From positions 186,001-250,000 of the forward strand of contig NZ_JAFICD010000006.1 of assembly GCF_017833525.1 (NCBI RefSeq): a stretch of 64,000 nt of DNA, written 5' to 3'. How positions within the stretch are numbered: position 1 is the first letter of the stretch; the number at the start of each line of letters is the position of its first letter. The position numbers and the translations under genes were made by a program. Positions 9,169 through 26,853 of the stretch are shown one piece after another. This DNA comes from Duganella sp. 1411. Lineage in GTDB: Bacteria; Pseudomonadota; Gammaproteobacteria; Burkholderiales; Burkholderiaceae_D. The notes under the pieces are model-generated. The model saw only the letters and a program-made list of their open reading frames with translations. It was not told the origin of the DNA and ran no database searches.

Positions 9169-9199
9169 GACTGAGTCCTTTCTTTCCAGTTAAAGTGAA

Positions 9200-9775: not shown

Positions 9776-9817
9776 AATGTGATACTCCTTAAAGAAACCG
9801 GACTTGGGTACTGCATG

Positions 9818-9850
9818 CGGCGGGTCGTGTCCGTGATTAACGACCCGCCG
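9818..9850 (-). terminator. Perfect hairpin between DUF475 and terD genes, possible partial terminator
   Basis: CGGCGGGTCGT (9818-9828) pairs perfectly with ACGACCCGCCG (9840-9850). There is no clear U-tract on either side, so it could be an attenuator, an RNA-processing or stability element, or a weak terminator inside the ter operon. Confidence 0.45.
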
Positions 9851-9882
9851 TGTTCTTTACTGCTTGAATTACTGCCTGAACG

Positions 9883-11045: not shown

Positions 11046-11957
11046 ATGAAGACCAGCGGACTGAATTTTCGGCACCTGTATTTTTTCTGGATGGTGGCCA
11101 AGGAAGGCGGCGTCACGCGCGCCGCCGAGCGGCTCGGGCTGGCGGTGCAAACGATCAGCATGCAGCTGGCGTCGCTGGAACAATCGATCGGCAAGCAATT
11201 GCTCGAGCCGCAGGGACGGCGCCTGGTGCCGACCGAGGCGGGCCGGCTCGCGCTGAGCTACTGCGACCAGATCTTCCTGCTGGGCGAGCAATTGCAGGAC
11301 GCGCTAGACGAGGCCGAGGCGGGCAAGATGCGACTGACGGTGGGCATCTCCGACTCGCTGCCCAAGCTGATCGCGTTCCGCCTGCTGCAGGCCACCCAGG
11401 AGCTCGACAAGCAGGTGCGGCTGGTGTGCATGGAGGCCGAGTTCGAGGACCTGCTGGCCGACTTGGCGCTGGGCAAGCTCGATGTCGTATTGACCGACCG
11501 CACGGTGCGCGCCGGCGGCAGCCTCAAGGTGTACAGCCACCTGCTGGGCGAAAGCGACATGAAGCTGTTCGGCGTGCCGCGCCTGGCCGACAAGTACCGG
11601 CCCGGCTTTCCGGCCAGCCTGAACCACGCGCCGCTGCTCGTACCCACGCGCAACAACGCGCTGCGCGGTCGCATCGACGCCTGGCTGGTGGAGCACGAGG
11701 TGCGGCCGGAGATCGTCGGCGAATTCGAGGACAACGCCATGCTCAACACGTTCGGGCGCAACGGCATGGGCTTGTTCTTCGCCACGTCGGCGCTGGCGCA
11801 GGACATCAAGGATCAGTTCGGCGCGGTGCTGGTGGGCGACGCGCCGGAACTGCGCGAGCACTTCTACGCCATCTCCAGCGCCCGCAAGATCAAGCATCCG
11901 GCGGTCGAGGCGATCCTGTCGGCGGTGCACAGCGGACCGTTCGCGGTGGCAAGCTGA
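11046..11957 (+). CDS. LysR family regulator, NhaR-like
   Basis: 303 residues: winged HTH (FRHLYFFWMVAKEGGVTRAA, ERLGLAVQTISMQLASLEQS) followed by a periplasmic-binding-type effector domain. LNFRHLYFFW, the use of VQTISMQ in the recognition helix, and FEDNAMLNTFGRNGMGLFF in the effector domain are features of the NhaR branch. In E. coli NhaR responds to Na+ and activates an antiporter gene. No antiporter is adjacent here; the gene instead diverges from the DUF475/TerD operon, which it may control. That target is inferred. Purine-rich sequence (GGAAGATAGG) precedes the ATG. Confidence 0.82.
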   Translation: MKTSGLNFRHLYFFWMVAKEGGVTRAAERLGLAVQTISMQLASLEQSIGKQLLEPQGRRLVPTEAGRLALSYCDQIFLLGEQLQDALDEAEAGKMRLTVGISDSLPKLIAFRLLQATQELDKQVRLVCMEAEFEDLLADLALGKLDVVLTDRTVRAGGSLKVYSHLLGESDMKLFGVPRLADKYRPGFPASLNHAPLLVPTRNNALRGRIDAWLVEHEVRPEIVGEFEDNAMLNTFGRNGMGLFFATSALAQDIKDQFGAVLVGDAPELREHFYAISSARKIKHPAVEAILSAVHSGPFAVAS

Positions 11958-12013
11958 CAGACCTTATCGAATCGGTTACAGTTTACCGATCACTAGACTG
12001 ATGGGAGCGGGCG

Positions 12014-12397
12014 ATGTTGAAAGGCACTTGTTTATGCGGCGGCGTCGCCTACCGGGCCGAGGGGCCGGTGTCCCACGCCAGCCACTGCTACTGCACCATG
12101 TGCCAGAAGCAGCACGGCGCGGCGTCCGGCACCTACGCCAACGTCGGCATGGCCGGCTTCGCCTTCGAGCGCGGCGCCGACCTGGTGACCGAATACGCCT
12201 CGTCCGACCACGGCCGGCGCGGCTTTTGCCGGGTGTGCGGCTCGACCTTGTTCTGGCGCAGCACGCAAAGCCCGGACCGCATCGCCCTCACGCTGGGCAC
12301 GATGGAGCCCGAATACGACGGCCCGGTGCAGCGCGAACTGCACACCGACACCAAGCCGCGCTGGCTGCCGACCAGGCAGGCCGACGCCGGTGATTAG
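12014..12397 (+). CDS. GFA family (glutathione-dependent formaldehyde-activating-like) zinc protein
   Basis: 127 residues, the usual length of the GFA fold. The zinc cysteines are all present: Cys6 and Cys8 in GTCLCGGV, Cys25, Cys27 and Cys30 in HCYCTMCQK, and Cys72 and Cys75 in FCRVCGSTLF. The family is named after an enzyme first proposed to promote S-hydroxymethylglutathione formation; most members have no assigned substrate. A second GFA paralogue lies at 28881. The stop overlaps the start of the next gene by 8 bp, so the two are translationally coupled. Confidence 0.85.
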   Translation: MLKGTCLCGGVAYRAEGPVSHASHCYCTMCQKQHGAASGTYANVGMAGFAFERGADLVTEYASSDHGRRGFCRVCGSTLFWRSTQSPDRIALTLGTMEPEYDGPVQRELHTDTKPRWLPTRQADAGD

Positions 12398-12890
12398 CCG
12401 GAAAAAGCTACGCCACGTCGCCGCTGGCCTGCTCGCCTCATTCATCAGCCGCAACAACGACCTGGCGGGCTACTGGGCGCCCGGCCTGCTGTACCGCGAG
12501 TGCGGGGCCGACCTGTGCGTGCGATTGAACTTGCTTGCACCGGGCCCGGCCCCCTCGCCCCGCATCGCCACGGCCGCCGCCCGCCAGTACGGCGAATTCC
12601 TGCAACGCGCGCTGAGCAGGCACGGCCTGCACCTGGAACAGCTCGCACACGCCGAGATCGCGCTGCGTTTCGACGCGGACATCGCGCTGAACGATGTCGG
12701 ACGCGGATGGATAGGCGAGCCCTTCGTTTGCACCGTCACGCTCACGGCGCAGGACGGCCGGGCGGCCCGTGCGCAAGGCATCAGACGCTGCGCGCGCTAT
12801 GATCCCGGCAGGTTCACGGGGCGGGCGCACAGCGGCGGCCCGGCATTTGAACCGCTGCTGAACGGAGCCATTGGAGGGGACGACGACTGA
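12390..12890 (+). CDS. Hypothetical protein coupled to the GFA gene
   Basis: 166 residues with a GTG start inside the end of the GFA gene (8-bp overlap). I do not recognise a family. Features visible: a basic N terminus (ISRKKLRHVAAGLLASFISR), the segment NNDLAGYWAPGLLYRECGAD, and an acidic C terminus (GGDDD). No signal peptide or membrane segment is clear. Coding potential is supported by the overlap and by GC-rich third positions like its neighbours. It probably shares a transcript with the GFA gene. The function is unknown. Confidence 0.6.
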   Translation: MISRKKLRHVAAGLLASFISRNNDLAGYWAPGLLYRECGADLCVRLNLLAPGPAPSPRIATAAARQYGEFLQRALSRHGLHLEQLAHAEIALRFDADIALNDVGRGWIGEPFVCTVTLTAQDGRAARAQGIRRCARYDPGRFTGRAHSGGPAFEPLLNGAIGGDDD

Positions 12891-12963
12891 CCCCGCCATG
12901 GCTGATAGTCCCGCGCGGGTTTGCTAAAATGGCACTTTCCACTTTCGTCTGCCGGGAACTTCT

Positions 12964-13449
12964 GTGCTCACTGCAATTCATCATCCCGCCACCGGCGTTT
13001 CTGACCTGGCACCGCTCCGGCAAGCGCGCGCCGACGACATTCCGGCGATGTCGGCTATTCGCCTTGCCGTCAAGGAAAACGTTCTATCCGATCCGAGCCG
13101 TGTCACCGAGCAAATGTATCGGGACTATCTGGACCTGTTGGGACGCGGCTGGGTGGTCGAGGTCGACGGCAAGGTGGTGGGATTTTCCTACGCCGATAAG
13201 ACTGACGCGTCGATCTGGGCGCTGTTTGTGGCGCAGGACTACGAAGGCAGGGGAATCGCGAAGCGCTTGTTGAATGCGGCGGTGGACTGGCTGTTCGCCC
13301 TGGGCCACGAAAGCGTTCATCTGAGCACCTCCAAAGATACGCGGGCCGACAAATTCTATACCAGCCAAGGATGGACCCGCAGCGTGTTGAACGACCGCGA
13401 TGCGGGATTTCGCCTTACACGGAAGGCGACAACATTTGAAGGTAGCTGA
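12964..13449 (+). CDS. GNAT family N-acetyltransferase
   Basis: 161 residues with a GTG start. The GNAT core is clear: RQARADDIPAMSAIRLAVKE (beta1-alpha1), GRGWVVEVDGKVVGFSYADK (beta2-3), IWALFVAQDYEGRGIAKRLL, which holds the acetyl-CoA pyrophosphate loop QDYEGRGIAKR, and the closing YTSQGWTRS. The family transfers acetyl groups from acetyl-CoA to amines; the substrate is unknown. Its 3' end overlaps the 3' end of another GNAT gene on the opposite strand by 35 bp. An in-frame downstream start is possible but would remove beta1. Confidence 0.82.
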   Translation: MLTAIHHPATGVSDLAPLRQARADDIPAMSAIRLAVKENVLSDPSRVTEQMYRDYLDLLGRGWVVEVDGKVVGFSYADKTDASIWALFVAQDYEGRGIAKRLLNAAVDWLFALGHESVHLSTSKDTRADKFYTSQGWTRSVLNDRDAGFRLTRKATTFEGS

Positions 13450-13891
13450 CGTCAGTGCCGTTATAGTGCCGGGTCGACCGACCGGCAACGGTGAATCCGC
13501 TTCGCTGATAAAACTGTCGCGCATTGAGATTGGACTCCGCCACATGCAGCGACAATCCTCGCGGCGCGCGCGCCAGCGCAGCGTTGAGCAAGGCGTGGCC
13601 CACGCCTCGTCCGCGCGCCTCGCCGTGCACGAATAACGCCCGCAACTGCCCGTCGAACATGGCGGCGAATCCCACCACCCTGTCATCTTCATAGACGATG
13701 ACATCGGATTCGCGAAACGCCGCCAGGATGACGGCGTCCTCTTCCAGCGGAATAATTTCAATGACTTGGGCTTCGTATGCCAGCTCGTCGCGCTTGGCAT
13801 TGGCGTAAATTCGGCCGACTTCGGCAAGATCCGCCTCATTAAACTGCCTGACGCGCATTGGCAACGGCCCGCCGGCATCCAACTCAGACAA
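13415..13891 (-). CDS. GNAT family N-acetyltransferase (convergent paralogue)
   Basis: Up to 158 residues. An internal Met at residue 12 (MRVRQFNEADLAEVGRIYAN, start near 13858) is the better domain boundary, because the GNAT fold begins there. The acetyl-CoA loop is GEARGRGVGHALL, preceded by LRALFVHG, and the C-terminal NARQFYQRSGFTVAG is canonical. It converges on the neighbouring GNAT gene with a 35-bp tail-to-tail overlap. The gene for a small membrane protein ends 8 bp into its start region. The substrate is unknown. Confidence 0.8.
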   Translation of the reverse strand: MSELDAGGPLPMRVRQFNEADLAEVGRIYANAKRDELAYEAQVIEIIPLEEDAVILAAFRESDVIVYEDDRVVGFAAMFDGQLRALFVHGEARGRGVGHALLNAALARAPRGLSLHVAESNLNARQFYQRSGFTVAGRSTRHYNGTDVSYLQMLSPSV

Positions 13892-14108
13892 CGTTTGCCC
13901 GCCTTTTTCGCAGCCGCGCCATGTAAACCACCGCGCATCCGATCATCGGAAGCAGCGCGAAGAGCGCACCGACGCCGATAAAAAGCCAGCCGGCGGCGGC
14001 ACCGCCGAATACGCAGAACACAAATAAAAACAGCATCTCCGGACTGCCAAGAAAAAGCAGGCCCCAGTTGTCACAATGGGCTGCGGACTTCTCAGAAACT
14101 CTCTTCAT
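13884..14108 (-). CDS. Small hypothetical membrane protein
   Basis: 74 residues. Two hydrophobic segments (MLFLFVFCVFGGAAAGWLFI and VGALFALLPMIGCAVVYMA) are followed by a basic tail (RLRKRRANVV), predicting a two-helix inner-membrane protein with a cytoplasmic C terminus. I recognise no family. It overlaps the start of the GNAT gene by 8 bp on the same strand, which supports a real two-gene unit. It is transcribed leftward from the AT-rich region. Confidence 0.5.
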   Translation of the reverse strand: MKRVSEKSAAHCDNWGLLFLGSPEMLFLFVFCVFGGAAAGWLFIGVGALFALLPMIGCAVVYMARLRKRRANVV

Positions 14109-14639
14109 GGGACTCTCGCAGGTTGGTCGTCAAACTGAACATCAATACTTCGCATGCTGGCGTCGAGATCGGCATTCAACGATGAAAAAAACTAGCTAGC
14201 GCTTCCCATCATATCTTGTTTAGATTTCTATGGGCCAATATGTCTTTTTCCTCAGCCGTTATATTTGGTTAGAATTTCCAATAATCAATGCACGATCAAA
14301 TTACATGGTTCTATTTTGATAGAATCTGGACTTTTAAACAGTGGATGGCTCGCCGCAGTTATATTTGGAGAGAATTCCAGGTTGAATATCTTCCAATAAG
14401 CAAGTTATGAAATTTTTAATTATTAATTGACAGCGTATTTTTTTCGCAATATTCTTGAGCTGTTTCAAATACGCTGCTTTCGAAGTGAGGTTGCCACTGG
14501 CGGTAATGCCTGTTACCCACAATACCCCCCCAAGTAAAAGGATCTGGATATGTTTCAGAAGCCATACAGAGATCGTCAAAAAGAGATTTCCATTATCTCG
14601 ATTCCAGGTCTCGGCTGTAACAAGCCCGGAACATATCTC
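14109..14639. other. AT-rich intergenic region with short repeats, leader of the NRPS cluster
   Basis: A 530-bp gene-free stretch whose middle (14160-14470) is far more AT-rich than anything around it. GTTATATTTGGTTAGAATTT near 14257 is echoed by GTTATATTTGGAGAGAATTC near 14356. A weaker related copy, TCTATTTTGATAGAATCT, lies near 14310. The repeats are about 50 and 100 bp apart. They could be tandem regulator-binding sites or curved promoter DNA for the downstream cluster. A minus-strand open frame here has only a TTG start and no support. Confidence 0.55.
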
Positions 14640-16307
14640 ATGAAACTTGTCTTCATCTGGCCCTTAATAGGATGTTTTGCCGCGGCAGGGGCTGCGCAGC
14701 CGTCGGCGCCTTGGTTGTCGCCATTGTTTGCCCCGGCCCGCCTCTCACAGGACGTGCGCATTCTGGCCTCCGACGAATTCGAGGGGCGGGCTCCGTACAC
14801 CGCTGCGGAAACCAAAACCGTCGATTACCTCGTTACGCAAATGCGCCGCGCAGGGCTGCAGCCTGGCGGTGACATCGATAACGGAAAACGCAGCTGGATT
14901 CAGCCCGTTCGGCTCGTTCGTAGCGAACACGTCAGCCCGCCCTCGGCGTCCATAACGATCGGTGGCGTGCAGCAAACTCTTAGTCAAGGGCAAGAGGTCG
15001 TTATCCGTGCCACGTTAAACGGCTCCAGCTCGGTCGACATCGATTCGGCGCCAGTGGTATTCATTGGCTATGGGGTCAGCGCGCCGGAGCGCAACTGGGA
15101 CGATTTCAAAGGCGTGGACCTGCACGGTAAAGTCGCATTGGTGTTGATAAACGATCCAGACTTCGAAACCGGCGAAGGCGATTTCGGCGGCCGCGAGATG
15201 ACTTATTATGGCCGCTGGACATATAAGTTCGAGGAAGCTCTCCGGCGTGGTGCTAGCGCCGTATTCATCATCCACGAGACGGCACCAGCTTCTTATGGAT
15301 GGGAACTGGTGCGGAACACGGACACTCTTCCTTTATTCGACATCGAGCGCGACGACCCGGCATCGATCCATCCGCAGCTGGAAGGATGGATGCATAGAGA
15401 TTCCGCAGTGACGCTGTTTGAGCGGGCTGGGCTTGACTTCGAGGTGCTCAAGCAGGTGGCCCGGACCAGGGAATTCCATCCAGTTGAGCTTGCGGACGCT
15501 CGATTCTCGACTAGCTATCAAGTCAATCTCTCCACCGTCACATCAAAAAATGTGGTGGGTAGGATAAACGGCCGCGTGCACCCCGAAGAGAGCGTTGTTT
15601 ATGTCGCGCACTGGGATCATTTGGGTATCGGCAGCGATGACGCGCAAGGCGATCATGTCTTCAATGGCGCCTTCGATAACGCAACCGGCGTGGCCGGGCT
15701 ACTTGAGCTCGGGCGCCGTTTTGCAAACGGCCCTTCTCCGCAGCGTTCGCTGATATTTTTAGCGGTCACATCCGAGGAAAAAGGATTGCTGGGTTCAGAA
15801 TATTATGTTTCCAACCCCAGCCAGCCGCTATCAAAAACAGCAGGCGTTATTAATATCGATATTCTCGACCCCCATGGTCCGGCACGAAACTTTACTTCGG
15901 CAGGCAATCCAAAGCTGGATCTGCTCGACGATTTAAAAGTTACTGCAAAACATTGGGGCCTTTACTTCGCGCCCGATAAAAATTTGGCAGCGGGCCGGTT
16001 TTTCCGCTCTGATCATTTCTCGTTTGCTAAACGCGGAGTTCCAGCAGTGTGGTTCCAGTCGGGGAACGACTGGTACCACGGTGGCGCCACGGCAGGCGAT
16101 GCCGAAATGGCCGATTTCTATGCGAATAGATACCATCAACGCGGGGACGAATGGTCGCCGGCTTGGTCATTCACCGGCATGGCCCGTGATGTTTCGATCC
16201 TCTATCAATTCGGCCTCGACCTGGCGAACTCGCGGCGATGGCCCAACTGGGGCGCGGACTCGGAGTTTCGCGCGGTCCGCGACCAAACGGCCGCAGAGCG
16301 CCCCTGA
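14640..16307 (+). CDS. Secreted M28 family zinc metallopeptidase with PA domain
   Basis: 555 residues from the ATG that opens a good signal peptide (MKLVFIWPLIGCFAAAGAAQ). An upstream in-frame ATG at 14550 would bury that signal, so I reject it. An inserted protease-associated segment (FIGYGVSAPERNWDDFKGVD, then KVALVLINDPDF) precedes the M28 catalytic core. Di-zinc ligands and catalytic residues are intact: His324 in VAHWDHLG, Asp346 in FDNATGV, Glu379-Glu380 in SEEKGLLGS, Asp407 in NIDILD and His459 in SDHFSF. It is an aminopeptidase- or carboxypeptidase-like exopeptidase acting outside the cytoplasm. Placed immediately upstream of the NRPS genes, it may trim a leader group, recycle the product or be unrelated. 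Confidence 0.85.
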   Translation: MKLVFIWPLIGCFAAAGAAQPSAPWLSPLFAPARLSQDVRILASDEFEGRAPYTAAETKTVDYLVTQMRRAGLQPGGDIDNGKRSWIQPVRLVRSEHVSPPSASITIGGVQQTLSQGQEVVIRATLNGSSSVDIDSAPVVFIGYGVSAPERNWDDFKGVDLHGKVALVLINDPDFETGEGDFGGREMTYYGRWTYKFEEALRRGASAVFIIHETAPASYGWELVRNTDTLPLFDIERDDPASIHPQLEGWMHRDSAVTLFERAGLDFEVLKQVARTREFHPVELADARFSTSYQVNLSTVTSKNVVGRINGRVHPEESVVYVAHWDHLGIGSDDAQGDHVFNGAFDNATGVAGLLELGRRFANGPSPQRSLIFLAVTSEEKGLLGSEYYVSNPSQPLSKTAGVINIDILDPHGPARNFTSAGNPKLDLLDDLKVTAKHWGLYFAPDKNLAAGRFFRSDHFSFAKRGVPAVWFQSGNDWYHGGATAGDAEMADFYANRYHQRGDEWSPAWSFTGMARDVSILYQFGLDLANSRRWPNWGADSEFRAVRDQTAAERP

Positions 16308-16466
16308 CCAGGCATCTTTCTCCACCAATACCTATTGAAGTCTGCGATGTGACAACTTCGCTGTTGGCACGCGCACGGCCGGGGATACGCACGCCGATGG
16401 GCGTCGCATACCGCCTGATTCCGATGAAAACGCCATGGTTGTAATAATCTGAAAGGAGCCCTCGAA

Positions 16467-17384
16467 GTGACGCAATTGACTATTGACGAGCGCCAAAGTG
16501 CCCTCGGCGCGTATGAACGCGATGGATACACCGTTTTTCGAAATGTGATCGACGCCGAACTTATCGAGGAGGCGCAGGCGCACGTCGCGTGGCTGGGGAA
16601 GCGCTACCCCAACCTGCGACCGGAGCACTATCACCACCCGCTGGTGCGGGACGACGCGTTCTGGGTACGCCTGATAGCCGATTCCCGCTTGCTCGACATC
16701 GCGGAGCTGTTCGTCGGTCCGGACATTTCATGTTTTACCTCGCACTACGTTTGCAAGCCGCCGCTCGACGGCCATGCGGTGCTATGGCACCAGGATGGCG
16801 CGTATTGGGACCTGCGGCCGATGCGTGCTGTGACGCTTTGGCTGGCCATCGATCACAGCAACCCTGACAACGGCTGCGTCAGGATGCTGCCCGGGACGCA
16901 TCGCGAAGCTATTCTGCCCCTTGAGGCGCGTCTCGAAAAGCCGAACATGCTCGCCTCGTCGCTGAACTTCGAGCGGTTCAAGGACATCACCCCGATCGAC
17001 GTGGTGCTCAATCCGGGAGACGTGTCCGTCCATCATCCGCACATCGTACATGGCTCCGAGCCCAATCGATCGGCACACCGCCGCTGCGGCCTCGACATCG
17101 GCTACATGCCGGCCAGCGTCGGCATCCATAACGAAGCCCTTTACCAGACCCCGATCCTGGTGCGGGGAGACGCGCCGCGCGATCGTCAATACCAGCCGTG
17201 GCCCGAGGTTCGGCTTGGCGAGACGATCCATTTCCGCGGAGATGCGCAATGGAACAGGACGGCGGCCGAGAAGAATGCCCGATTCCAGCATCTGCAAAAT
17301 TCAGAAGACGATCCCCTGACGGTCACTTCACGCATGATGGAGCGGCTGAATTCGGGAACGGTCAAGCCCGGCGCCAAGGTATAG
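16467..17384 (+). CDS. Phytanoyl-CoA dioxygenase (PhyH) family Fe(II)/2-oxoglutarate oxygenase
   Basis: 305 residues, GTG start behind GAAAGGAG. The 2-His-1-carboxylate triad is present: His108 and Asp110 in WHQDGAYW and His195 in HIVHGSEPNRS. An Arg in the following SAHRRCG could bind 2-oxoglutarate. Substrate-pocket landmarks VTLWLAIDHS and GCVRMLPGTH are typical of PhyH enzymes in secondary metabolism, which hydroxylate, halogenate or desaturate free or carrier-bound substrates. It ends 42 bp before the NRPS gene and is probably cotranscribed. The substrate is inferred to be an NRPS building block or the peptide product. Confidence 0.85.
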   Translation: MTQLTIDERQSALGAYERDGYTVFRNVIDAELIEEAQAHVAWLGKRYPNLRPEHYHHPLVRDDAFWVRLIADSRLLDIAELFVGPDISCFTSHYVCKPPLDGHAVLWHQDGAYWDLRPMRAVTLWLAIDHSNPDNGCVRMLPGTHREAILPLEARLEKPNMLASSLNFERFKDITPIDVVLNPGDVSVHHPHIVHGSEPNRSAHRRCGLDIGYMPASVGIHNEALYQTPILVRGDAPRDRQYQPWPEVRLGETIHFRGDAQWNRTAAEKNARFQHLQNSEDDPLTVTSRMMERLNSGTVKPGAKV

Positions 17385-17426
17385 GCGGGACCCGGGCAAT
17401 CAACGCACCTATAGAGGTAACTGAAT

Positions 17427-20400
17427 ATGTCAGCACAGATCGAAGCCTCCAACACCGACCACCTCTGCGTTCATGAGTTGTTTGAGTTGCACGCCGCCAG
17501 GGCTCCGGAAGCAGATGCGGTAATCGAGGAAGCGCAGCACTGGAGTTACAAAGTGGTCAACGAGCGGGCCAACCGGCTTGCCCGCCACCTGCGCCAGCAG
17601 GGCGTCGGCCCCGACGTGCGGGTCGGTATTCTCATGTATCGCAGTGTCGACCTGGTGGTCGCCATCCTGGCCACCTGGAAGGCCGGCGGCGCCTATGTGC
17701 CGCTCGATCCGGGCTTGCCCGCCCAACGCCTGCGCACGATGCTGGAAACGTCGGTTCCGCCCGTGATATTGACACACGCCCCCGTGGTGGCCGAGGGCTT
17801 GCCCACGCCGGCGCGCGGCTTTCTTGACGAGCGCAAGACGGCGCTGATCGACATCGATGCCGGCGCCACCGCGTGGGCGGACGCGTCGCAGGACAATTTG
17901 CCGCGCGCCGAGAGCGGACTGATCGATCAGCATCTGGCCTATGTGATTTATACCTCCGGTTCCACCGGCCGGCCCAAGGGCGTGATGGTCGAACACCGCG
18001 GCCTGGTCAATCTGGTGCGCAATCAACTCCAAGGGTTCCGTATCGATCCGCAAAGCCGGGTTCTGCAGTTCGCGCCGTTCGGATTCGATGCGAGCGTGTC
18101 GGAACTCGGTATGGCGCTGGGTGGAGGCGCCGCGCTTTGTATCGCGCACCACGAGACCGTGCTGGTCGGCGTTTCACTGATCGAGGCGATCCGGCGCTTC
18201 GGGGTTACCCATCTGACCGCGCCCCCTTCGGTGTTGGGCGAGCTGCCGCGCGAAACACGATTCGATTCCCTGGTGACGCTGTCGCTGGCGGGCGAGGCGC
18301 CGGGCGACGCACTGGTGCGCCACTGGGCCAAACACCACCGGCTGTTGAATGGTTACGGACCGACCGAAGCCACGGTCTGTTCGTCCGTCCATGAGTACAC
18401 CGTCGAGGGCGAACGCGCTGCGACCATCGGGCGCCCGCTGCAAAACACCCACATTTATATTCTCGACGAGCACGGACAGCCGGTGCCGACCGGGGGCACG
18501 GGCGAGATCCATATCGGTGGCAGGGGCGTGGCGCGCGGGTACGAGAACCGCCCGGACCTTACCGCGGAGCGCTTCGTGCCGAATCCGTTCACCTGCCTGC
18601 GCGGCGCGCGCATGTACAAGACCGGCGACCTGGCCCGTTATCAGGCCGACGGCAGCATCGAGTACATTGGACGCAACGATCGCCAGATCAAGTTGCGCGG
18701 CTTCCGCATTGAACTCGCGGAGATCGAAGCGGCCCTGCTGGAACATCCGAGGGTGCTGCAGGCCGCCGTGCTGGTGCGCCAACTGCGGCAAGGCGAGCAA
18801 GGACTGGTCGCGTACGTGGTCGAACACCGCGCAGGCGACGCGGTCGACCAGGACGGCACCTCGCTGGCGAAGCAACTGCGCCGGGATCTGGCCGAGGTTT
18901 TGCCCGATTACATGGTGCCGACGGCATACGTACAGCTCGAACGCATGCCGGTGAACGCGAACGGCAAGATCGACCGCGCCGGGCTGCCGGACCAGCTGCC
19001 GGCGAACGCTGCCTCGCACCGATACGAAACGCCCCAAGGCGCGGCCGAAGCCACGTTGGCGCAGATATGGGGGGACGTGCTCGGCATCGCGGACGTGGGG
19101 CGGCACGACAATTTCTTCGAGCTTGGTGGGAACTCGCTGCTGGCGGTAAGAGTCATCTATCGCATGCTGCAACATGGCTTGCACACGGACGTGAGAGGAA
19201 TATATTTGCGGCCGACGATTGCCGCGCTCGCCCCGGCCATCGGTCATATGGCGGACGCGGTCCATGTTCCCGAGAATCGGATCGACCCGCGGGCGGACCG
19301 CATCACGCCGGAGATGTTGACGCTCGTCACGCTGACCGCCGCCGAGATCGAACGGCTAGTCTCCAGCGTCGCCGGCGGCGCCCGCAACGTCCAGGACATC
19401 TATCCGCTGGCGCCGCTGCAGCAGGGGCTGCTGTACCAGCATCGCATCTCCACCGCCGGTGATTCCTATCGTCTGTGGACCATGTACCGCTTTCAGAGCC
19501 GGGCGCAGGTGGCGTCTTACGTGGCGGCGCTGCAAGCCGTCGTCGACCGCCACGACATACTGCGCACAGCGGTGATGTGGGAACAGGTGCGGGAACCTGT
19601 GCAAGTGGTCTGGCGCAGCGCGCCCTTGTCGGTCGTCGAGCTCGAAATCGGCGCCGCCGGCGGTTCGGTGGCACAAGCGTTGGTGGAGCGCTTCAACCGC
19701 GGCGAGTTTCCCCTCAGCTTGCAGCATGCGCCACTGGTGCGTTTGATCGTCGCAGCGGAGCCCCTCACCGGCAGCGTTATCGTCATGGAGATCAGCCATC
19801 ACATGATTATGGATCACGTCAGCCAGGGCCTGGTCCAGAACGAGTTGCGCGCGCGCTTGTTGAATCTTGACGAGCCGGCGCCTGCCGTGCCGTTCCGCGA
19901 CTTCATCGTGCGCGCGCGGCATGGCGCTGCACGCGTCGAGCAGGAAGCCTTTTTCACCGCGCTACTCGGCGCCGTCAAAGAGCCGACGGCGCCTTTCGAC
20001 ATCTTGAACGTCCGTGACGATGGCGCCGCGATCGCGGAAGCGGAGCAAGAAATTGAGCCGCATTTCGCGGCAAGGCTGCGGCGCGCGGCGCAGGGAGCCG
20101 GCGTTAGCCCCGCAGCCCTGCACCACTTGGCCTGGGGATTGGTGCTGTCGCGGTTGACCGGTCGTGGCGAAGTGGTGTTCGGCACCGTGCTCGCGGGGCG
20201 TTCGCACGGCGGGGCCAAGGCCCAGCGGGTGATCGGCCTGTGCGCAAATACCTTGCCCATCCGTCTCACCGTGGATGGTCGATCCTGCCGCGACGCGGTC
20301 GGCTCCACGCACCAATTGCTGACCGAACTGATGGCGCATGAACAAGCGTCGCTGGCGCTGGCGCAGCGCTGCAGCGGCGTGGCGGCGCCGGCCCCTCTAT

Positions 20401-22568
20401 TCACGACGATCCTCAACTATCGCTATAGAGAACCCGAGTTGGCCGGCCTTGGCGTGGCGCGGCAGCATGCCGTCACCGACGTTCTGCCTGGGGCGCAATG
20501 GCTCGGCGCTGTCGAGCGCACCAATTTTCCGTTCGCGGTCTCCGTCGACGACTGGGGCAGCCAGTTGCGGCTGAAAGTCCAGGTGGACGACCGGGTGGAC
20601 CCGGCGAGAATGTGTACCTGGATGGCGGCGGCGCTGCAACGCCTGGTCGAAGCGCTCGAGACGGGTTCCGACACGTCCCTGCGGGGCGTGGACGTTATGC
20701 CCGAGGCGGAACGGCAGCTCTTGCTGACGACGTGGAACAAAACCAGCTCCCAGTTTGAGCGGGATGTCTGCCTCCACGAGCTGTTTGAGGCCAGCGCGGC
20801 CCGCAGCCCCGAGGCCCAGGCGCTGGTGCACAATGGCGAATCGCTTAGCTTCGGGCGGCTCAACGAACGCGCCAACCAACTTGCGGGCCACCTGCGCGAG
20901 CAGGGCGTCGGGCCGGAACGCCGAGTGGCCTTGTGTATGGAACGCGGCTTCGACATGGTGGTTGGCATGCTTGCCATCCTCAAGGCCGGCGGCTGCTACG
21001 TTCCGCTGGATCCGGCTTATCCGGCCGACCGCCTGGAATACATGTTGCGCGACGCCGAGCCCGCCGTGGTCATTACGCACCAGAAGGTACAAGACCGTGT
21101 CAGCACGCGCTTGTACAAAGTCGCCAAAGAACGCGCGTTGCCGCTGATCGATCTGGACACCGACAAAGCGCTCTGGGCTGACCGCGCCGGCGGGAATCAT
21201 GCGCGCGGCACGACCGGCCTCGACGCCACGCACCTCGCCTACGTGATCTACACCTCGGGTTCGACCGGAGCGCCGAAGGGCATCGAGGTGGAACACCGCG
21301 GCGCGGCCCACTTCGTCCAGTGGGGCATGACCGAATTCGGCCCGGAGGACTTGCGGCAGACGCTCTTCTCCACCTCGGTCAACTTCGATCCGTCCGTGCT
21401 GGAGTGCTTCTCGGCGCTGGCGACAGGCGGCACCGCGATTATCGTCGGCGATGTGCTGTCGGGCGCCGGCGCCGGGCAGAAAGCCACGCTGCTCAATGCG
21501 GTGCCGTCGGCCATGCGGGCGCTGTTCGACGCCGGCGGCATTCCCGCGACGACCCGTACGGTCGTGCTTGGCGGCGAGGCTTTGCATCCGCCGCTGGTGG
21601 AGCGCGTCTTCCGAGAGAGCAATGCGGAACGGGTCTTCAATGCCTACGGGCCGACCGAGACGGGCTATTCCACCTATGCCGTGACGAAACGCGGCGAGGC
21701 GTTCACCGGGCATATCGGCCGGCCGCTCGGCCACACCCGACTCTATATTCTTGATGGCAATGGCAACCCGACGCCGATCGGCATCCCCGGAGAAATTTTC
21801 ATCGGCGGGCACGGCGTGGCGCGAGGCTATCATCAGCGGCCGGCGTTGACCGCCGAGCGATTCGTGCCGGATATCTTCTCCGCCGAAGCCGGCGCCCGGA
21901 TGTATAAAACCGGCGACTTGGCGCGCTATCGCGACGATGGCACGATCGAGTTCATCGGCCGCAGCGACTTCCAGGTCAAGCACCGCGGGTTCCGCATCGA
22001 GCTCGGCGAGATCGAGGCGAAGATACTCGAGCACCCGGCGATCGATCAGGCGGTAGTGCTCTTGCGCGAGGACCAGCCCGGCGACAACCGGCTCGTCGCC
22101 TACGTGGTAGGCAAGGCTGGCGCGGCGGCGGCGGACGGCGCATGGCCGGCCGATGTGCTGCGGTCGCACCTGTCCCACTTCCTGACCAACCACATGGTTC
22201 CGGCCGTGTACGTGGCGCTCGACAGCATGCCGACCACGCCGAACGGCAAACTCGACCGCGCCGCCCTGCCGCAGCCCGACGCCTTCGCGCGCAACCTGGA
22301 AACCTACGAGGCGCCCGTCGGCGGCACTGAGGCGCAGATCGCCGGTATCTGGATGGATTTGCTCAGCGTCGGCCGGGTCGGACGGCGTGACAACTTCTTC
22401 GAGCTCGGCGGCCACTCGCTGCTTGCCATGGTGGTCGCCGCAAGGCTGCGCAGCGGCATGGGGGTGGAAATCCCGCTCAGCGATCTGCTGGCGCACCCGG
22501 TCCTTTGCGACCTGGCGGCGGAGGTGGGAAGGGTCGCCCGATCTTTGCAGACGGCAAACGTTGCTTGA
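17427..22568 (+). CDS. Nonribosomal peptide synthetase, A-T-C-A-T (two modules, no release domain)
   Basis: 1713 residues. Domains: A1 about 20-515 (YTSGSTGRPKG, GRNDRQIKLRGFRIEL, NANGKIDR with Lys514); carrier T1 with Ser570 in LGGNSLLAV; C about 655-1090 (YPLAPLQQGLLYQ; active site His791-His792...Asp796-His797, i.e. HHxxxDH rather than HHxxxDG); A2 about 1110-1605 (YTSGSTGAPKG, GRSDFQVKHRGFRIEL); T2 with Ser1664 in LGGHSLLAM. Read by eye, specificity positions are D-A-S-T-S-A-G-V-C-K for A1, resembling DAST codes of tyrosine/beta-hydroxytyrosine domains, and D-P-L-N-V-G-A-Y-S-K for A2, which I cannot assign. With no N-terminal C domain, A1-T1 loads the first residue. The protein ends just after T2 without thioesterase, reductase or terminal C domain. 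An MbtH partner is encoded downstream. Confidence 0.95.
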   Translation: MSAQIEASNTDHLCVHELFELHAARAPEADAVIEEAQHWSYKVVNERANRLARHLRQQGVGPDVRVGILMYRSVDLVVAILATWKAGGAYVPLDPGLPAQRLRTMLETSVPPVILTHAPVVAEGLPTPARGFLDERKTALIDIDAGATAWADASQDNLPRAESGLIDQHLAYVIYTSGSTGRPKGVMVEHRGLVNLVRNQLQGFRIDPQSRVLQFAPFGFDASVSELGMALGGGAALCIAHHETVLVGVSLIEAIRRFGVTHLTAPPSVLGELPRETRFDSLVTLSLAGEAPGDALVRHWAKHHRLLNGYGPTEATVCSSVHEYTVEGERAATIGRPLQNTHIYILDEHGQPVPTGGTGEIHIGGRGVARGYENRPDLTAERFVPNPFTCLRGARMYKTGDLARYQADGSIEYIGRNDRQIKLRGFRIELAEIEAALLEHPRVLQAAVLVRQLRQGEQGLVAYVVEHRAGDAVDQDGTSLAKQLRRDLAEVLPDYMVPTAYVQLERMPVNANGKIDRAGLPDQLPANAASHRYETPQGAAEATLAQIWGDVLGIADVGRHDNFFELGGNSLLAVRVIYRMLQHGLHTDVRGIYLRPTIAALAPAIGHMADAVHVPENRIDPRADRITPEMLTLVTLTAAEIERLVSSVAGGARNVQDIYPLAPLQQGLLYQHRISTAGDSYRLWTMYRFQSRAQVASYVAALQAVVDRHDILRTAVMWEQVREPVQVVWRSAPLSVVELEIGAAGGSVAQALVERFNRGEFPLSLQHAPLVRLIVAAEPLTGSVIVMEISHHMIMDHVSQGLVQNELRARLLNLDEPAPAVPFRDFIVRARHGAARVEQEAFFTALLGAVKEPTAPFDILNVRDDGAAIAEAEQEIEPHFAARLRRAAQGAGVSPAALHHLAWGLVLSRLTGRGEVVFGTVLAGRSHGGAKAQRVIGLCANTLPIRLTVDGRSCRDAVGSTHQLLTELMAHEQASLALAQRCSGVAAPAPLFTTILNYRYREPELAGLGVARQHAVTDVLPGAQWLGAVERTNFPFAVSVDDWGSQLRLKVQVDDRVDPARMCTWMAAALQRLVEALETGSDTSLRGVDVMPEAERQLLLTTWNKTSSQFERDVCLHELFEASAARSPEAQALVHNGESLSFGRLNERANQLAGHLREQGVGPERRVALCMERGFDMVVGMLAILKAGGCYVPLDPAYPADRLEYMLRDAEPAVVITHQKVQDRVSTRLYKVAKERALPLIDLDTDKALWADRAGGNHARGTTGLDATHLAYVIYTSGSTGAPKGIEVEHRGAAHFVQWGMTEFGPEDLRQTLFSTSVNFDPSVLECFSALATGGTAIIVGDVLSGAGAGQKATLLNAVPSAMRALFDAGGIPATTRTVVLGGEALHPPLVERVFRESNAERVFNAYGPTETGYSTYAVTKRGEAFTGHIGRPLGHTRLYILDGNGNPTPIGIPGEIFIGGHGVARGYHQRPALTAERFVPDIFSAEAGARMYKTGDLARYRDDGTIEFIGRSDFQVKHRGFRIELGEIEAKILEHPAIDQAVVLLREDQPGDNRLVAYVVGKAGAAAADGAWPADVLRSHLSHFLTNHMVPAVYVALDSMPTTPNGKLDRAALPQPDAFARNLETYEAPVGGTEAQIAGIWMDLLSVGRVGRRDNFFELGGHSLLAMVVAARLRSGMGVEIPLSDLLAHPVLCDLAAEVGRVARSLQTANVA

Positions 22569-22659
22569 TTTCAGCGCGCCGCGTCGCTTAAAAAAGTGCC
22601 CCCTCCTCCTGTTTTGGTGAGCGGGGCGGTTCTACAGACTGCCTCTCGAGAGAACACTT

Positions 22660-23649
22660 ATGAAGACAATTATCTGGGATACCTCCTACTTTTGCCCGCT
22701 GCAGTGTGTGTATTGCTATTCCTCGTCAGGACCACATCGCCCGCAAACCGAAGCCGAGCAGACCCTCGCCGTCGCGCGGGCGATTGCCCGCGAACGCCCC
22801 GGTGCGGTGATGATCAGCGGCGGCGAGCCCACCTTCGCCAAAGGGATCCTCGAGGCAGGCAAGTTGCTGAAGGACGCTGGCATCGTCGCCTCGATATTCA
22901 CCTCGGGCTGGGCGATGAACCCGACCCGGATCCGCTCGCTGTGCGAGGTGTTCGATCGGGTGCACGTCAGCATCGACGCCAGCGACCCGGAGGTCAATGA
23001 CCGGGTGCGCAACCGGAAGGGCGCGCACGCCAACGCGATGGAAACGTTGCGTTTGCTCGGCGAGGAGCAGTCGCACAACAAGCGGCTGCGCTTCGGGGTC
23101 GAATGCACGGTGATCCGCGACAACCTCGATGGCATCGCCAGCTTTGTACGCGCCATGTCCACGGTACCGGGTCTGAGCTTCATCAACATCGTGGCCGCCG
23201 TCCCGAGCGGTCGCGGGGCGGACGCGCTACGGTGTGAAACGCAGTTGCTTAGCAGCGAGGAAGTGCGGCAACTATCGCAGTCGGTCAAAGGCGTGCAGAA
23301 GGAGGTTCCCCCCACGGTGATCCTGACGTTGAACGATACGGATTTCCTGCAAAGCGATGGCGAATCTTGTGTTCAGCTTGATCCAAAGGGCAATCTGCGC
23401 GCCATCAAGATTTGTGACAAGACCGTCGGCAATCTTATCGACGAGCCGCTCGATGTGCTCATCGCCCGCGCTCTGGAGTGGCGACAGAATTCAGGACTGG
23501 CGAAACAGTTGACGCAGGCGTCCAACTTCGTGGCTTGGGGCGACGTCGTGCGTCGGATCGATCAAGAGGCCGCGGCAATCGGCGGCGCGGCCATACCGGG
23601 CCATCACGGCGGCGATGCTGGACAGCCGCGGCTGCACGACTCTCACTAA
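22660..23649 (+). CDS. Radical SAM enzyme with short C-terminal cysteine pair
   Basis: 329 residues. The [4Fe-4S] motif is Cys12-x3-Cys16-x2-Cys19 (CPLQCVYC) at the extreme N terminus, followed by the SAM-binding glycine motif ISGGEPTFA and SIDASDPEVND. The C-terminal region holds Cys237 (GESCVQL) and Cys252 (KICDKT), fewer than a full SPASM domain, so a twitch-like or single auxiliary cluster is possible. Such enzymes catalyse C-C, C-S or C-O bond formation, epimerisation or methylation. It lies 91 bp downstream of the NRPS and 12 bp upstream of the CmlA homologue, clearly in one unit. The reaction is unknown. Confidence 0.88.
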   Translation: MKTIIWDTSYFCPLQCVYCYSSSGPHRPQTEAEQTLAVARAIARERPGAVMISGGEPTFAKGILEAGKLLKDAGIVASIFTSGWAMNPTRIRSLCEVFDRVHVSIDASDPEVNDRVRNRKGAHANAMETLRLLGEEQSHNKRLRFGVECTVIRDNLDGIASFVRAMSTVPGLSFINIVAAVPSGRGADALRCETQLLSSEEVRQLSQSVKGVQKEVPPTVILTLNDTDFLQSDGESCVQLDPKGNLRAIKICDKTVGNLIDEPLDVLIARALEWRQNSGLAKQLTQASNFVAWGDVVRRIDQEAAAIGGAAIPGHHGGDAGQPRLHDSH

Positions 23650-23661
23650 GGACAAGCCAAT

Positions 23662-25281
23662 ATGGGATATTATCTGCACGATGATGTGAAGATCGAGCCG
23701 CTGGTCGGCCGTTGGTATGCGCATCCTTTTCTGATCGCGCCGGCCTCCGCCGCGTTCATGACCCGGCATCACATCCAGATCATGGAGTCGTTTGTGCAGC
23801 ATCCGGAGTTGCACGCCGCCGCACTTCAGCAACCGTCCATGCGCGGCGGTCCATTTCTCGAAAGCTCCAACGGCGCGGATGATGTGGGCGAGATCCGCCG
23901 CCTGCTGGAATTCACGCGGCTGAGCCGCGCTGAATTGCTGCGCCTGGCCGCTGAAATCGACGACTTGCAGGGGATGTTGCGCGCAACCACCGGAGCTAGC
24001 CTGGACGGCACCTATCCCAAACTCGGGGCGGGCCTGGGCGGACGGGTGGAGCTTGCCTACGAGACGTCGGGCTTGCGCGGGCGCGCGCGGCTGATCGAGG
24101 CGTTGCTGTATGCGGCCTTTCCGCCGGAAACGCATCAGGAGTTCGCGCTGGCCAGGGTGGATTCCGACGCGCGCCCGTACGTGCTGAGCACTCCCCGCCT
24201 GGCCAGCGAGGGAGACCTGATCCTTCGTATGCCATTTGGCTCATCAGAAAGCGCGGCGCTGCTCGCCTCCCGCCAGCGGCCGTTGTCGGACGAGGATCTG
24301 GAGCGCTTTTTCCACATGCAGGGAACCGGCTCAAGCTGGACACGGGCGCAGATCAACGATCTGTTCCGCGCCAGTCCCGACCTGCCCAGCCGGCCCGCGG
24401 CGGACGATGGCCCGCGCATCGACTACTTCGGCCATGCCTGCGTGCTGATCCGCACCGGCCGGGCGAGCGTGCTGATCGATCCACTGGTCGGCTATAACGT
24501 CGCCGAGGGACCGGCGCGGAGCACTTGGCGCGATTTGCCGGCGCAGATCGATTGCGCACTGATCACGCACGCCCATCACGATCATTACGTGATCGAAACT
24601 TTGCTGCAGATCCGCGAGCGGACCAAGACGCTGGTTGTGCCGCGCAGCACCCCGGGAGCCATCCACGATCCCTCCCTCGAACTGGTATCCAGGCATCTGG
24701 GCTTCGGCGATGTGCTGGCGCCCAACCCGTTCGACGCGCTGGAGTTCGACGGGGTAAAGATCCAGACACTGCCGTTCCTGGGCGAACACGGCGAGCTGGA
24801 CATCACCAGCAAGCTCGGATACCGTCTTGAGTTCGCGGGGCAATCGGTGGTCTTTCTTGCCGACAGCAACAATTTGGACACCCGGATGTACCAGCAGATC
24901 CGCGATCTCTACGGCCCGACCGATATCGCCTTTATCGGCCTGGAATGCCAGGGGGCGCCCATTTCGTGGACGTATGGACCTCTGCTGTTCGGCTCGGTGT
25001 CGCGCGAAATGGAGCCGGGACGAAGGACCGGCGGCTCCAACGCCGAGCGGGCCTTGCAGCTGGTGCGCGCGCTCGGGTGCAAGCGCGTGTTCATCTACGC
25101 CATGGCAATCGAGCCGTGGGCCGGACCGCTGGGCGGTTCTCCCATCGAAAAAGACTCGTATCAGGACATGGAGAACCAGGCGTTCATCCGCGATTGCCGG
25201 GCACTGGGCATCGAGGTGGAATTGTTGGATGGGTCAAAATCAATCGCGCTCGATGGCGAGCGGCGCATGCCGGCGGTCTAG
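23662..25281 (+). CDS. CmlA-type di-iron beta-hydroxylase of carrier-bound amino acids
   Basis: 539 residues, close to the 532 of the chloramphenicol enzyme CmlA. The N-terminal CmlA_N-like domain (1-230) reads LVGRWYAHPFLIAPASAA and later AALQQPSMRGGPF; the C-terminal half is a metallo-beta-lactamase fold. The di-metal motif is His303-x-His305-x-Asp307-His308 (THAHHDH). Glu375 (GEHGEL) occupies the place where hydrolases have His, the hallmark of CmlA, and Asp401 (LADSNN) is the bridging Asp. The spacings 303-375-401 equal those I recall for CmlA 305-377-403. The family uses a di-iron cluster and O2 to beta-hydroxylate an aminoacyl group on an NRPS carrier domain, here presumably the aromatic residue on T1. 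The start is fixed by AAGGA. Confidence 0.88.
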   Translation: MGYYLHDDVKIEPLVGRWYAHPFLIAPASAAFMTRHHIQIMESFVQHPELHAAALQQPSMRGGPFLESSNGADDVGEIRRLLEFTRLSRAELLRLAAEIDDLQGMLRATTGASLDGTYPKLGAGLGGRVELAYETSGLRGRARLIEALLYAAFPPETHQEFALARVDSDARPYVLSTPRLASEGDLILRMPFGSSESAALLASRQRPLSDEDLERFFHMQGTGSSWTRAQINDLFRASPDLPSRPAADDGPRIDYFGHACVLIRTGRASVLIDPLVGYNVAEGPARSTWRDLPAQIDCALITHAHHDHYVIETLLQIRERTKTLVVPRSTPGAIHDPSLELVSRHLGFGDVLAPNPFDALEFDGVKIQTLPFLGEHGELDITSKLGYRLEFAGQSVVFLADSNNLDTRMYQQIRDLYGPTDIAFIGLECQGAPISWTYGPLLFGSVSREMEPGRRTGGSNAERALQLVRALGCKRVFIYAMAIEPWAGPLGGSPIEKDSYQDMENQAFIRDCRALGIEVELLDGSKSIALDGERRMPAV

Positions 25282-25314
25282 CGCTGATAGAACAGTTAAT
25301 AGGAGGAAGTTCAA

Positions 25315-25551
25315 ATGAACATGAACGACGAAAAAGACGCCGTATCCTACGTTGTGGTGAAGAATGAGGAAGAGCAGTACGCCATCCTGCCGGAGCACCA
25401 GAGTGTGCCCGCGGGCTGGAAGGTTGCCGGGCCGAAGGGAGAGAAGCGCCACTGCCTCGACTACATCCAGGATAACTGGACGGACATGCGTCCCCTCAGT
25501 GTTCGCGCGCAAGGCGCTCAGCGCAGCGGATCTGCGCATCCACGCCAATGA
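25315..25551 (+). CDS. MbtH family NRPS chaperone
   Basis: 78 residues. The MbtH core is NEEEQYAILPEHQSVPAGW, then GEKRHCLDYIQDNWTDMRP, matching the family's conserved Asn, Glu, Pro, Trp and TDMRP positions. The usual SLWP segment is replaced by AILP. A non-conserved tail of about 15 residues follows. MbtH proteins bind A domains and are needed for their folding or activity, so the target is one or both A domains of the upstream NRPS. A strong AGGAGGAAG site precedes the ATG. It ends 7 bp before the acetyltransferase gene. Confidence 0.93.
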   Translation: MNMNDEKDAVSYVVVKNEEEQYAILPEHQSVPAGWKVAGPKGEKRHCLDYIQDNWTDMRPLSVRAQGAQRSGSAHPRQ

Positions 25552-25558
25552 GTAATAG

Positions 25559-26074
25559 ATGAGCCACTCTTACACCATTCCCGTCATTCAAACAGATCGC
25601 CTCACGCTTCGCGAGTACCGGCCTGCCGACTTCGATGCATTTGCCGGGCACCTCGCAGACCCCGAAAGCGCGGCCCACATCGCTCTGGCCGATCGTGACA
25701 CGGCGTGGCGGATCTTCAGCGGCCACGCCGGGCTATGGGTCTTGCATGGCGCGGGATGGTGGGCGGTCGAGATGCGGCAGACTGGCGAGCTGATTGGTAA
25801 CGTGGGGGCATTCTTCCGCGAGACGTCGCCCGTGATGGAGGTCGGCTGGAACACCTATCGCGCGTTCTGGGGCCACGGATACGCAAGCGAGGCGGCGGCG
25901 GCGGCCTTGGACTTCGCGTTTGAGGTCAGGCGCGAACCGAAGATTCAAGCGCTCATCGATTCGGGCAATGAATCCTCGCTTCGTGTTGCTCAGCGCCTTG
26001 GTTTTGCTTACGAGTCCGAAACCGAAATCCACGGTAAAACGGTGGGCAGGTACTCCCGGCAGCGGGGGCGTTGA
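25559..26074 (+). CDS. GNAT family N-acetyltransferase, RimJ/RimL-like, end of the NRPS cluster
   Basis: 171 residues. It begins with the RimJ/L pattern IQTDRLTLREYRPADFDAFA. VGWNTYRAFWGHGYASEAAA contains the acetyl-CoA loop, and NESSLRVAQRLGFAYESE closes the fold. It starts only 7 bp after the MbtH stop without a clear ribosome site, suggesting coupling. It could acetylate the peptide product for modification or self-protection, or be an unrelated housekeeping acyltransferase; the tight spacing favours the former. A minus-strand gene ends 38 bp downstream, so this closes the cluster. Confidence 0.82.
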   Translation: MSHSYTIPVIQTDRLTLREYRPADFDAFAGHLADPESAAHIALADRDTAWRIFSGHAGLWVLHGAGWWAVEMRQTGELIGNVGAFFRETSPVMEVGWNTYRAFWGHGYASEAAAAALDFAFEVRREPKIQALIDSGNESSLRVAQRLGFAYESETEIHGKTVGRYSRQRGR

Positions 26075-26111
26075 AGGCACCTGGCCGGGATTAAGCTGGT
26101 CACGGCGGCGG

Positions 26112-26570
26112 TTACGGGTTGATCACCAGATAATCGGCGTAAAGCAGGATCGGCGCCGGCCACTCGATGCTGACCCAGATGTCGACGGCGTTGGCCCTCG
26201 GCGCGACGTTGCGCACCGTGAAGCGGGCCGCCCCGATGAACTTGCCGTTGTCCGGTCCGCCGGCAACGCCCTCGCTTACCGCCACGAAGATCCGCGAACG
26301 GGGAGTGATCAGCGGCAGCCTGGGCGAGATGAGGGTCAGTATCACCTCGCCGTTGCGGGCGCCCCAGTTCTGCCGATACGTGTAACCGTATCCTTCCAGC
26401 ACCTGTTGCCGCACCGTCCCCCCGGACAGCGGCACCACCGCCGCTTCGTCCAGCTCCTGCACGACCGTCGTGACGCCGGCCAGTATCGCCGAGGAAGCGG
26501 CCGCCGCCTGGTCCTGCGCGGACCGGGGCGCAGTGATCACTTCAGGTCCATTGCTATGAATAATCGACAT
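26112..26570 (-). CDS. Hypothetical protein, 152 residues
   Basis: The start is placed at the ATG (MSIIHSNGPEVITAPRSAQD) preceded by AAGGAGA 6 bp upstream; a longer frame to 26684 has no ribosome site and a low-complexity Arg/Ser extension. The N terminus is Ala/Gln-rich (AQDQAAAASSAILAGVTTVV). The rest is probably beta-rich, with KFIGAARFTVRNVAP and a hydrophobic end (ILLYADYLVINP). No signal peptide, membrane helix or known motif is apparent, and I recognise no family. It is convergent with the NRPS cluster and divergent from the CNNM transporter gene. Confidence 0.6.
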   Translation of the reverse strand: MSIIHSNGPEVITAPRSAQDQAAAASSAILAGVTTVVQELDEAAVVPLSGGTVRQQVLEGYGYTYRQNWGARNGEVILTLISPRLPLITPRSRIFVAVSEGVAGGPDNGKFIGAARFTVRNVAPRANAVDIWVSIEWPAPILLYADYLVINP

Positions 26571-26853
26571 CGTAGTTCTCCTTGGTACACCGTGGGTCGG
26601 GGTCGCCGCGCTCGACAGGCAAGACCGGCGACTTGGCCGGTCACAACGACCGGCGCCGTGAGCGCCGCCAACAAAGTCGGCCACTCACTCTCCTTATGCT
26701 AGCTGGTGCATATGGACGGTGTTTGTGGCGCCTCAATGTCGCAAGGGGCCTCAGGCGATATGGATTTTCGGTAATAAACAGCAATTTGCGCCCCATCCCC
26801 CCGCAGTCGTTTAAGATGCGTGTTTTAACTACGTAAACCGCCGCTCGGCCCCT

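Follow-up and report, generated by a model that had tools for sequence, protein, structure and literature searches.

A compact nonribosomal peptide synthetase operon combining CmlA-type, radical SAM and PhyH enzymes on a candidate acquired island in Duganella sp. 1411

What might a two-residue assembly line accompanied by three different oxidative chemistries produce, and how did it come to occupy its present site? These questions are raised by a seven-gene operon of Duganella sp. 1411, located at 14640-26074 on the plus strand of the window, the stretch of 64,000 nucleotides analysed here (contig NZ_JAFICD010000006.1, positions 186,001 to 250,000). The reading modestly favoured on the evidence set out below is that of an acquired nonribosomal peptide synthetase (NRPS) operon making an oxidised metabolite of dipeptide scale, via a proposed route through the first adenylation domain (A1) and a CmlA-type hydroxylase; the predicted product would probably contain a beta-hydroxylated Tyr-like residue.

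Open reading frame (ORF) checks and Pfam searches bore out the initial annotation of seven open plus-strand genes with gaps of 7-159 bp (159, 42, 91, 12, 33 and 7 bp in gene order), and likewise each of the gene identities proposed there. The operon begins with an M28 family peptidase (14640-16307; PF04389, 3.8e-42) and a PhyH-type Fe(II)/2-oxoglutarate oxygenase (16467-17384; PF05721, 1.5e-32), continues with an NRPS of 1713 aa (17427-22568; two AMP-binding domains, 7.5e-166, one Condensation and two PP-binding domains), a radical S-adenosylmethionine (SAM) enzyme (22660-23649; PF04055 Radical_SAM, 6e-20) and a CmlA-type diiron beta-hydroxylase (23662-25281; PF18456 CmlA_N, 2.4e-55, plus PF12706 Lactamase_B_2, 8.1e-14), and ends with an MbtH-like protein (25315-25551; PF03621, 1.6e-17) and a GNAT acetyltransferase (25559-26074; PF13302 Acetyltransf_3, 3.8e-28). 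These Pfam matches far exceed chance, the catalytic motifs of the M28, PhyH and CmlA-type proteins are intact, and the pairing of a two-module NRPS operon with three types of oxidative enzyme is thereby supported. The M28 ORF opens at 14550, and 14640 was retained as the start because the N-termini of same-genus homologues begin there. No regulator was found among the seven operon genes.

Pfam also confirmed the order of the adenylation (A), thiolation (T) and condensation (C) domains of the NRPS as A-T-C-A-T, and a motif check located core motifs of all three domain types. The N-terminal A domain implies that the NRPS starts with an initiation module, so that the whole is read as initiation plus one elongation module; the dipeptide scale proposed in the initial annotation fits this architecture in size, the product itself being a prediction. 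The A1 code, read by eye from the GrsA anchor positions, was DASTSAGVC(K), which we take to resemble Tyr-type codes; the A2 code, read in the same manner, was D-P-L-N-V-G-A with Y-S as its continuation, or G-Y if a one-residue gap is allowed. Among the best plasmid relatives listed, the first module was 48-52% and the second 48-49% identical. A match to the NCBIfam model of the solanimycin synthetase SolG (1458.2 bits against a cutoff of 2200) was dropped as a generic C-A-T match because, in a scan scoring at most two candidates per genome, 26 of the 27 places found at E<=1e-250 in 16 other genomes outscored this NRPS. Ensifer adhaerens plasmid pD encodes, in a region without listed genes (L031, 10001-15169), NRPS sequence that aligns with this synthetase at 48.9% identity over 1743 columns. 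In the Duganella sp. 1411 genome itself, a different contig has a second MbtH gene (G000, C2:101408-101563), which hints at a further NRPS locus.

Both the CmlA_N and the metallo-beta-lactamase-fold domains are present in the CmlA-type protein, and residues H303, H305, D307, H308, E375 and D401 (HxHxDH, E, D), which we take to be iron ligands, were invariant in 11 aligned CmlA-type sequences. The PDB chains matched spanned 301-324 bits, with CmlA itself at 303 bits and the best match, 8a90, at 324 bits, its chain being named 'Non-heme diiron monooxygenase'. CmlA-family enzymes hydroxylate carrier-bound amino acids, and FrsH, a member of the family, acts in this way on leucine (PMC7794379); since FrsH uses leucine, homology to CmlA leaves an aromatic substrate unfixed. 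The beta-hydroxylated aromatic residue initially put forward is accordingly plausible from the A1 code as read by eye, CmlA homology alone being insufficient for it. Relatives of the protein occurred in nine of 197 other related genomes (33-40% identity), and a GTDB scan yielded at least 383 confirmed relatives, of which the best 80 were kept (identity <=42%). Within these 80 loci, taken as stretches of 4 to 21.6 kb, five held a PhyH-like match (41-100 bits) and three an M28-like match (48-65 bits), so neither pairing with CmlA is unique in itself. A plasmid of Candidatus Megaera polyxenophila (Rickettsiaceae) was seen to carry a CmlA homologue together with an aminobenzoate oxygenase and an NRPS (L017, 11998-22753).

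The PhyH oxygenase retains an intact HxD...H facial triad (H108-Q-D110 and HHPHIVHGSEPNR from 189). NRPS halogenases have Ala or Gly (HxA/G) in place of the Asp ligand; a SyrB2-type halogenase was rejected here, the Asp being present and the chlorinating-enzyme model giving 33.8 bits vs 226.3. A plasmid search matched 21 records, the nearest being from Streptomyces (54% and 48%) and lying near NRPS or acyl-carrier genes; the next relatives (44%) were on Halomontanus plasmids, and in the one plasmid read there this relative lay away from any NRPS genes, whereupon the notion of an NRPS-only subfamily was discarded. At E<=1e-25, relatives were found in 18 of the 197 other related genomes, 29-39% identical over partial lengths, with none in same-genus genomes.

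The radical SAM protein contains cysteines at 12, 16, 19, 95, 149, 192, 237 and 252, the first three forming the canonical CX3CX2C cluster motif. The SPASM and Twitch domains are defined by C-terminal cysteine motifs; the full SPASM set of seven is absent, C237 and C252 being the sole cysteines past residue 192, and these may be a two-Cys remnant of a partial Twitch/SPASM-like tail. Searches of 198 related genomes (E<=1e-20, up to 11 candidates scored per genome) and of 398 phylum genomes (E<=1e-15, up to five per genome) returned the protein itself alone, while in a collection of 84,980 species none of 44 pattern matches was confirmed, exact short peptides being needed, so that this search reached close relatives only. 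On plasmids, 45 records matched, all below 60% identity; the 20 listed were 23-32% identical, and those annotated were mostly mycofactocin, NirJ and other radical SAM proteins. There was no match to the protein in any of the 80 best CmlA loci (E<=1e-3), where four other CX3CX2C ORFs of at least 200 codons were present. When the genomes or records behind 26 of these loci and six plasmids were searched, one of the 32 gave a 29% match over 127 residues, and four of 207 genomes from the phylum of G585 (Sorangium, locus L049) gave matches of 27-34% confined to the first 180 residues (E<=1e-15, up to ten candidates per genome). Because few candidates were scored per genome, a weak true relative could have escaped; within the genomes and plasmids searched, the protein is by sequence comparison an orphan with weak partial matches of 23-34%.

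Nor did curated families claim it: of the 25 NCBIfam radical SAM families shown (43 in total), none exceeded its cutoff, the best reaching 62.6 bits against 500. Prokaryotic viperin was rejected (50 bits against an NCBIfam cutoff of 180), as were PADLOC pVip (59.8 bits over residues 4-164) and heme b synthase, NirJ and the like, all superfamily-level matches. Foldseek matches of a structural model of poor quality (DesII, viperin, NifB, PqqE and others) give weak support for the fold. In one CmlA locus from a gammaproteobacterial metagenome-assembled genome, a CX3CX2C ORF was noted (L090, ~8645-9986) that by eye resembles lysine-2,3-aminomutase.

The N-terminus of the M28 peptidase appears by eye to be signal-peptide-like. 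A search of 100 genomes at E<=1e-60 gave family matches in every one of the 60 from the same genus, its own among them, and in none of the 40 others. With its own genome set aside, 46 of the 59 same-genus genomes had a nearer homologue as top match (~55-58% identical where listed), and in the remaining 13 the top match was ~40% identical. The Duganella sp. 1411 genome itself contains six family matches including the cluster copy, the nearest other being 57% identical, and comparison with five same-genus homologues (57-58%) indicated shared catalytic motifs with differing residues beside them. On these sequences, the cluster M28 is classed as a divergent copy of a genus-wide multi-copy family. 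As regards the GNAT enzyme, assignment as BlmB failed (39.3 bits, 4.6e-10, against a cutoff of 625). Acetyltransferases are named as self-resistance factors for the peptide antibiotics paenilamicin (PamZ) and odilorhabdin, and a self-protection role is therefore possible for the operon GNAT.

The operon lies within a segment of ~14.86 kb (11945-26806) inserted between genes for a LysR regulator and a CNNM protein, as delimited by breaks in blastn homology. CNNM was searched in 26 genomes, of which 17 matched (own included), and the upstream stretch was read in nine same-genus relatives, six of which entered the blastn block comparison. Homology stopped at 11944 and resumed at 26805-26809 in G013, G008, G004 and G011, where the flanking blocks are 8, 30, 12 and 100 bp apart, respectively; in G005 and G010 the left block runs to 11950 and 11917, the right one begins at 26838 and 26852, and the spacing is 125 and 570 bp, respectively. 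LysR and CNNM are neighbours, ~50-540 bp apart, in six of the nine relatives (G013, G008, G004, G011, G010 and G005). In G014 and G007, ~4.4 kb of other genes separate them, among which G007 has one of the OmpA family. In G001, the 14-kb stretch read holds at its outermost end a 41-aa LysR match (75.6%) that is separated from CNNM by 11.9 kb, and an OmpA-family gene comes next; the interval there is probably equivalent but contains more genes. The interval thus varies across same-genus genomes (L141, L142, L145) and may be a variable insertion site.

By these comparisons, the ~14.86 kb was either gained here or cleanly lost elsewhere, gain being the simpler reading. The GC content at third codon positions was 0.62-0.81 in the seven operon genes and 0.80-0.92 in five flanking genes; because these ranges just overlap, composition offers weak support for acquisition. 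No tRNA that could mark an attachment site was found in the window, and no integrase or transposase among the island ORFs scanned, some small ORFs lying outside that scan. Upstream of the operon the island also encodes a GFA-family protein (12014-12397) and another GNAT (12964-13449), and it has at its other end a 153-aa minus-strand ORF (26115-26573) with no Pfam or PADLOC match.

The region immediately before the operon (13939-14639; GC 44%) contains three 22-nt direct repeats on the plus strand at 14255, 14305 and 14355 (14255-14376), which with their exact 50-bp spacing constitute a candidate operator; the middle copy is 68% like the first. The triple-repeat score of 49, for a unit length picked after the repeats had been seen, was reached by none of 1000 dinucleotide shuffles (mean 33.6, maximum 40), and the score of the best pair alone by one in 1000. 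A pattern derived from copies 1 and 3 matched, at up to three mismatches, those two places alone in the 7.63-Mb genome. A sigma-70-like promoter, TTGACA-17-TATTCT (14427-14455, plus strand), is proposed from 10 of 12 consensus matches only; shuffled versions of the region contained on average 1.0 such site, the actual sequence two.

Taken together, the following sequence of events can be envisaged. Transcription would start upstream of the M28 gene under the control of the three spaced repeats, and the MbtH-like protein would support the A domains. A1 would load a Tyr-like aromatic amino acid onto T1, the CmlA-type enzyme would hydroxylate the beta carbon of the T1-bound residue, and the C domain would join this residue to that selected by A2 on T2. 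The PhyH oxygenase might hydroxylate either a carrier-bound intermediate or the released product, and the radical SAM enzyme might carry out a further radical step, again on a carrier-bound intermediate or after release; the GNAT enzyme could acetylate an amine as a tailoring or self-protection step, the order of these three steps being one that we infer. Alternative release routes were considered because the NRPS has no thioesterase (TE): diketopiperazine cyclisation, a type II TE encoded elsewhere in the genome, or a non-canonical step might each serve. The M28 protein, probably exported, might process the product or represent an insensitive copy of its target.

Several observations weigh against this scheme. 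No TE, reductase or further condensation or epimerisation domain was matched by Pfam in the NRPS at E<=0.001, so that, lacking any domain for termination (a TE, a reductase or a C domain at the end), it fails as a complete line; its C domain carries HHMIMDH where the usual motif is HHxxxDG; both A codes come from a manual reading with GrsA anchors; modelling of the radical SAM protein from its single sequence gave a poor result (pTM 0.49, mean pLDDT 50.4); no exporter was found in the operon; and the M28 gene, from a multi-copy family of the genus, may be a passenger. The missing TE, together with the second MbtH gene, could signify that the NRPS contributes one subunit to a larger assembly line whose remainder is encoded elsewhere in the genome, yielding a longer peptide. 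Against this, the N-terminal A domain marks an initiation module, the tailoring genes are supplied by the island itself, and relatives lack the segment as a unit at this position, all of which makes the idea distinctly improbable. A different objection concerns the substrate, since the CmlA-type enzyme might act on the A2 residue, possibly aliphatic, in the manner of FrsH on leucine, in which event a beta-hydroxy aromatic residue would not be required. The slight lead of 8a90 over CmlA in the PDB comparison leans that way, as does the FrsH precedent; the A1 code nevertheless looks aromatic, and with relatives no more than 42% identical the gap in bits says little on substrate, so we regard this alternative as unlikely, if worth bearing in mind.

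Bestatin-type aminopeptidase inhibitors are of dipeptide scale and contain a hydroxylated aromatic residue, and on this resemblance the cluster M28 might be an inhibitor-insensitive duplicate of an exported aminopeptidase, the product being a bestatin-like inhibitor. The confinement of the family to the genus among the genomes searched, the nearer homologue in most of its members and in the genome itself, and the retention of catalytic motifs with changes beside them would all accord with such a role. Against it, the supposed target is not universal, and with five further family members in the genome the copy may be a passenger gene or have a processing function; the absence of the nearer homologue from 13 of 59 genomes weakens both this reading, for which we see a small chance, and its extension to the radical SAM enzyme. 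That extension, highly speculative and the least probable of the proposals, would have the enzyme perform an undescribed radical step on an NRPS-bound beta-hydroxy aromatic dipeptide, thereby also achieving or enabling TE-less release of a new aminopeptidase-inhibitor scaffold, with M28 as the insensitive target copy and the cluster thereby naming its own target. That the cluster is decayed or silent might be suspected from its presence in one genome only, yet all seven ORFs are open, their motifs are intact, and a promoter-like site and significant repeats lie upstream; we consider this very improbable. The favoured reading, that of an acquired operon directing an oxidised dipeptide-scale metabolite, would, if the operon is active, offer ~11.4 kb clonable as a whole in which three oxidative chemistries are paired with a two-residue synthetase. 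It would allow one to ask what an orphan radical SAM enzyme does in an NRPS pathway, how release proceeds without a TE, and whether the M28 paralogue marks a target, and the clean insertion means that natural cluster-free relatives are at hand for metabolite comparison.

It is common for orphan NRPS clusters to have unusual sets of tailoring enzymes, and the kind of pathway proposed here is known; the particular gene combination was not found in anything searched. The initial annotation had recognised no pathway with this gene set, and no matching cluster emerged from the genomes, plasmids, CmlA loci and literature covered. Literature searches, with most subscription journals outside their scope, returned no paper joining CmlA, radical SAM and NRPS, and none joining radical SAM, CmlA, nonribosomal peptide synthetase and phytanoyl-CoA dioxygenase; a broader search brought up FR900359, cystobactamid and a paper on a RiPP, and the A1 and A2 codes were found in no paper covered. 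A plasmid cluster of Janthinobacterium lividum EIF2 (L014, 9576-17684) is comparable in having a CmlA homologue (36.7%), an M28 peptidase and two TauD oxygenases near an NRPS, but differs in its large NRPS/polyketide synthase, SbnA/SbnB and transporters, and its record gave nothing matching the radical SAM protein at E<=1e-10. The NRPS region of a Streptomyces mirabilis NBC_01248 plasmid (L029) shares a PhyH protein (54%) near NRPS and MbtH genes, but contains P450s and a Lys/Orn oxygenase; the stretch read there gave no match to CmlA, and the record as a whole none to the radical SAM protein. The likeness to BlmB, of bleomycin-type self-resistance, lies in a GNAT domain within a cluster of peptide-antibiotic type, the operon GNAT not being a member of that family, and the likeness to bestatin-type inhibitors is confined to the dipeptide scale and hydroxylated aromatic residue predicted for the product. 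The chloramphenicol (CmlA) and FR900359 (FrsH/FrsA) systems have in common with the present operon a CmlA-family enzyme whose proposed ligands follow the same pattern and, in FR900359, an MbtH-like protein (FrsB); whereas the operon described here differs from both in combining an A-T-C-A-T NRPS without a TE with radical SAM, PhyH, GNAT and M28 proteins, its beta-hydroxylation step would be expected to work as it does in those systems.

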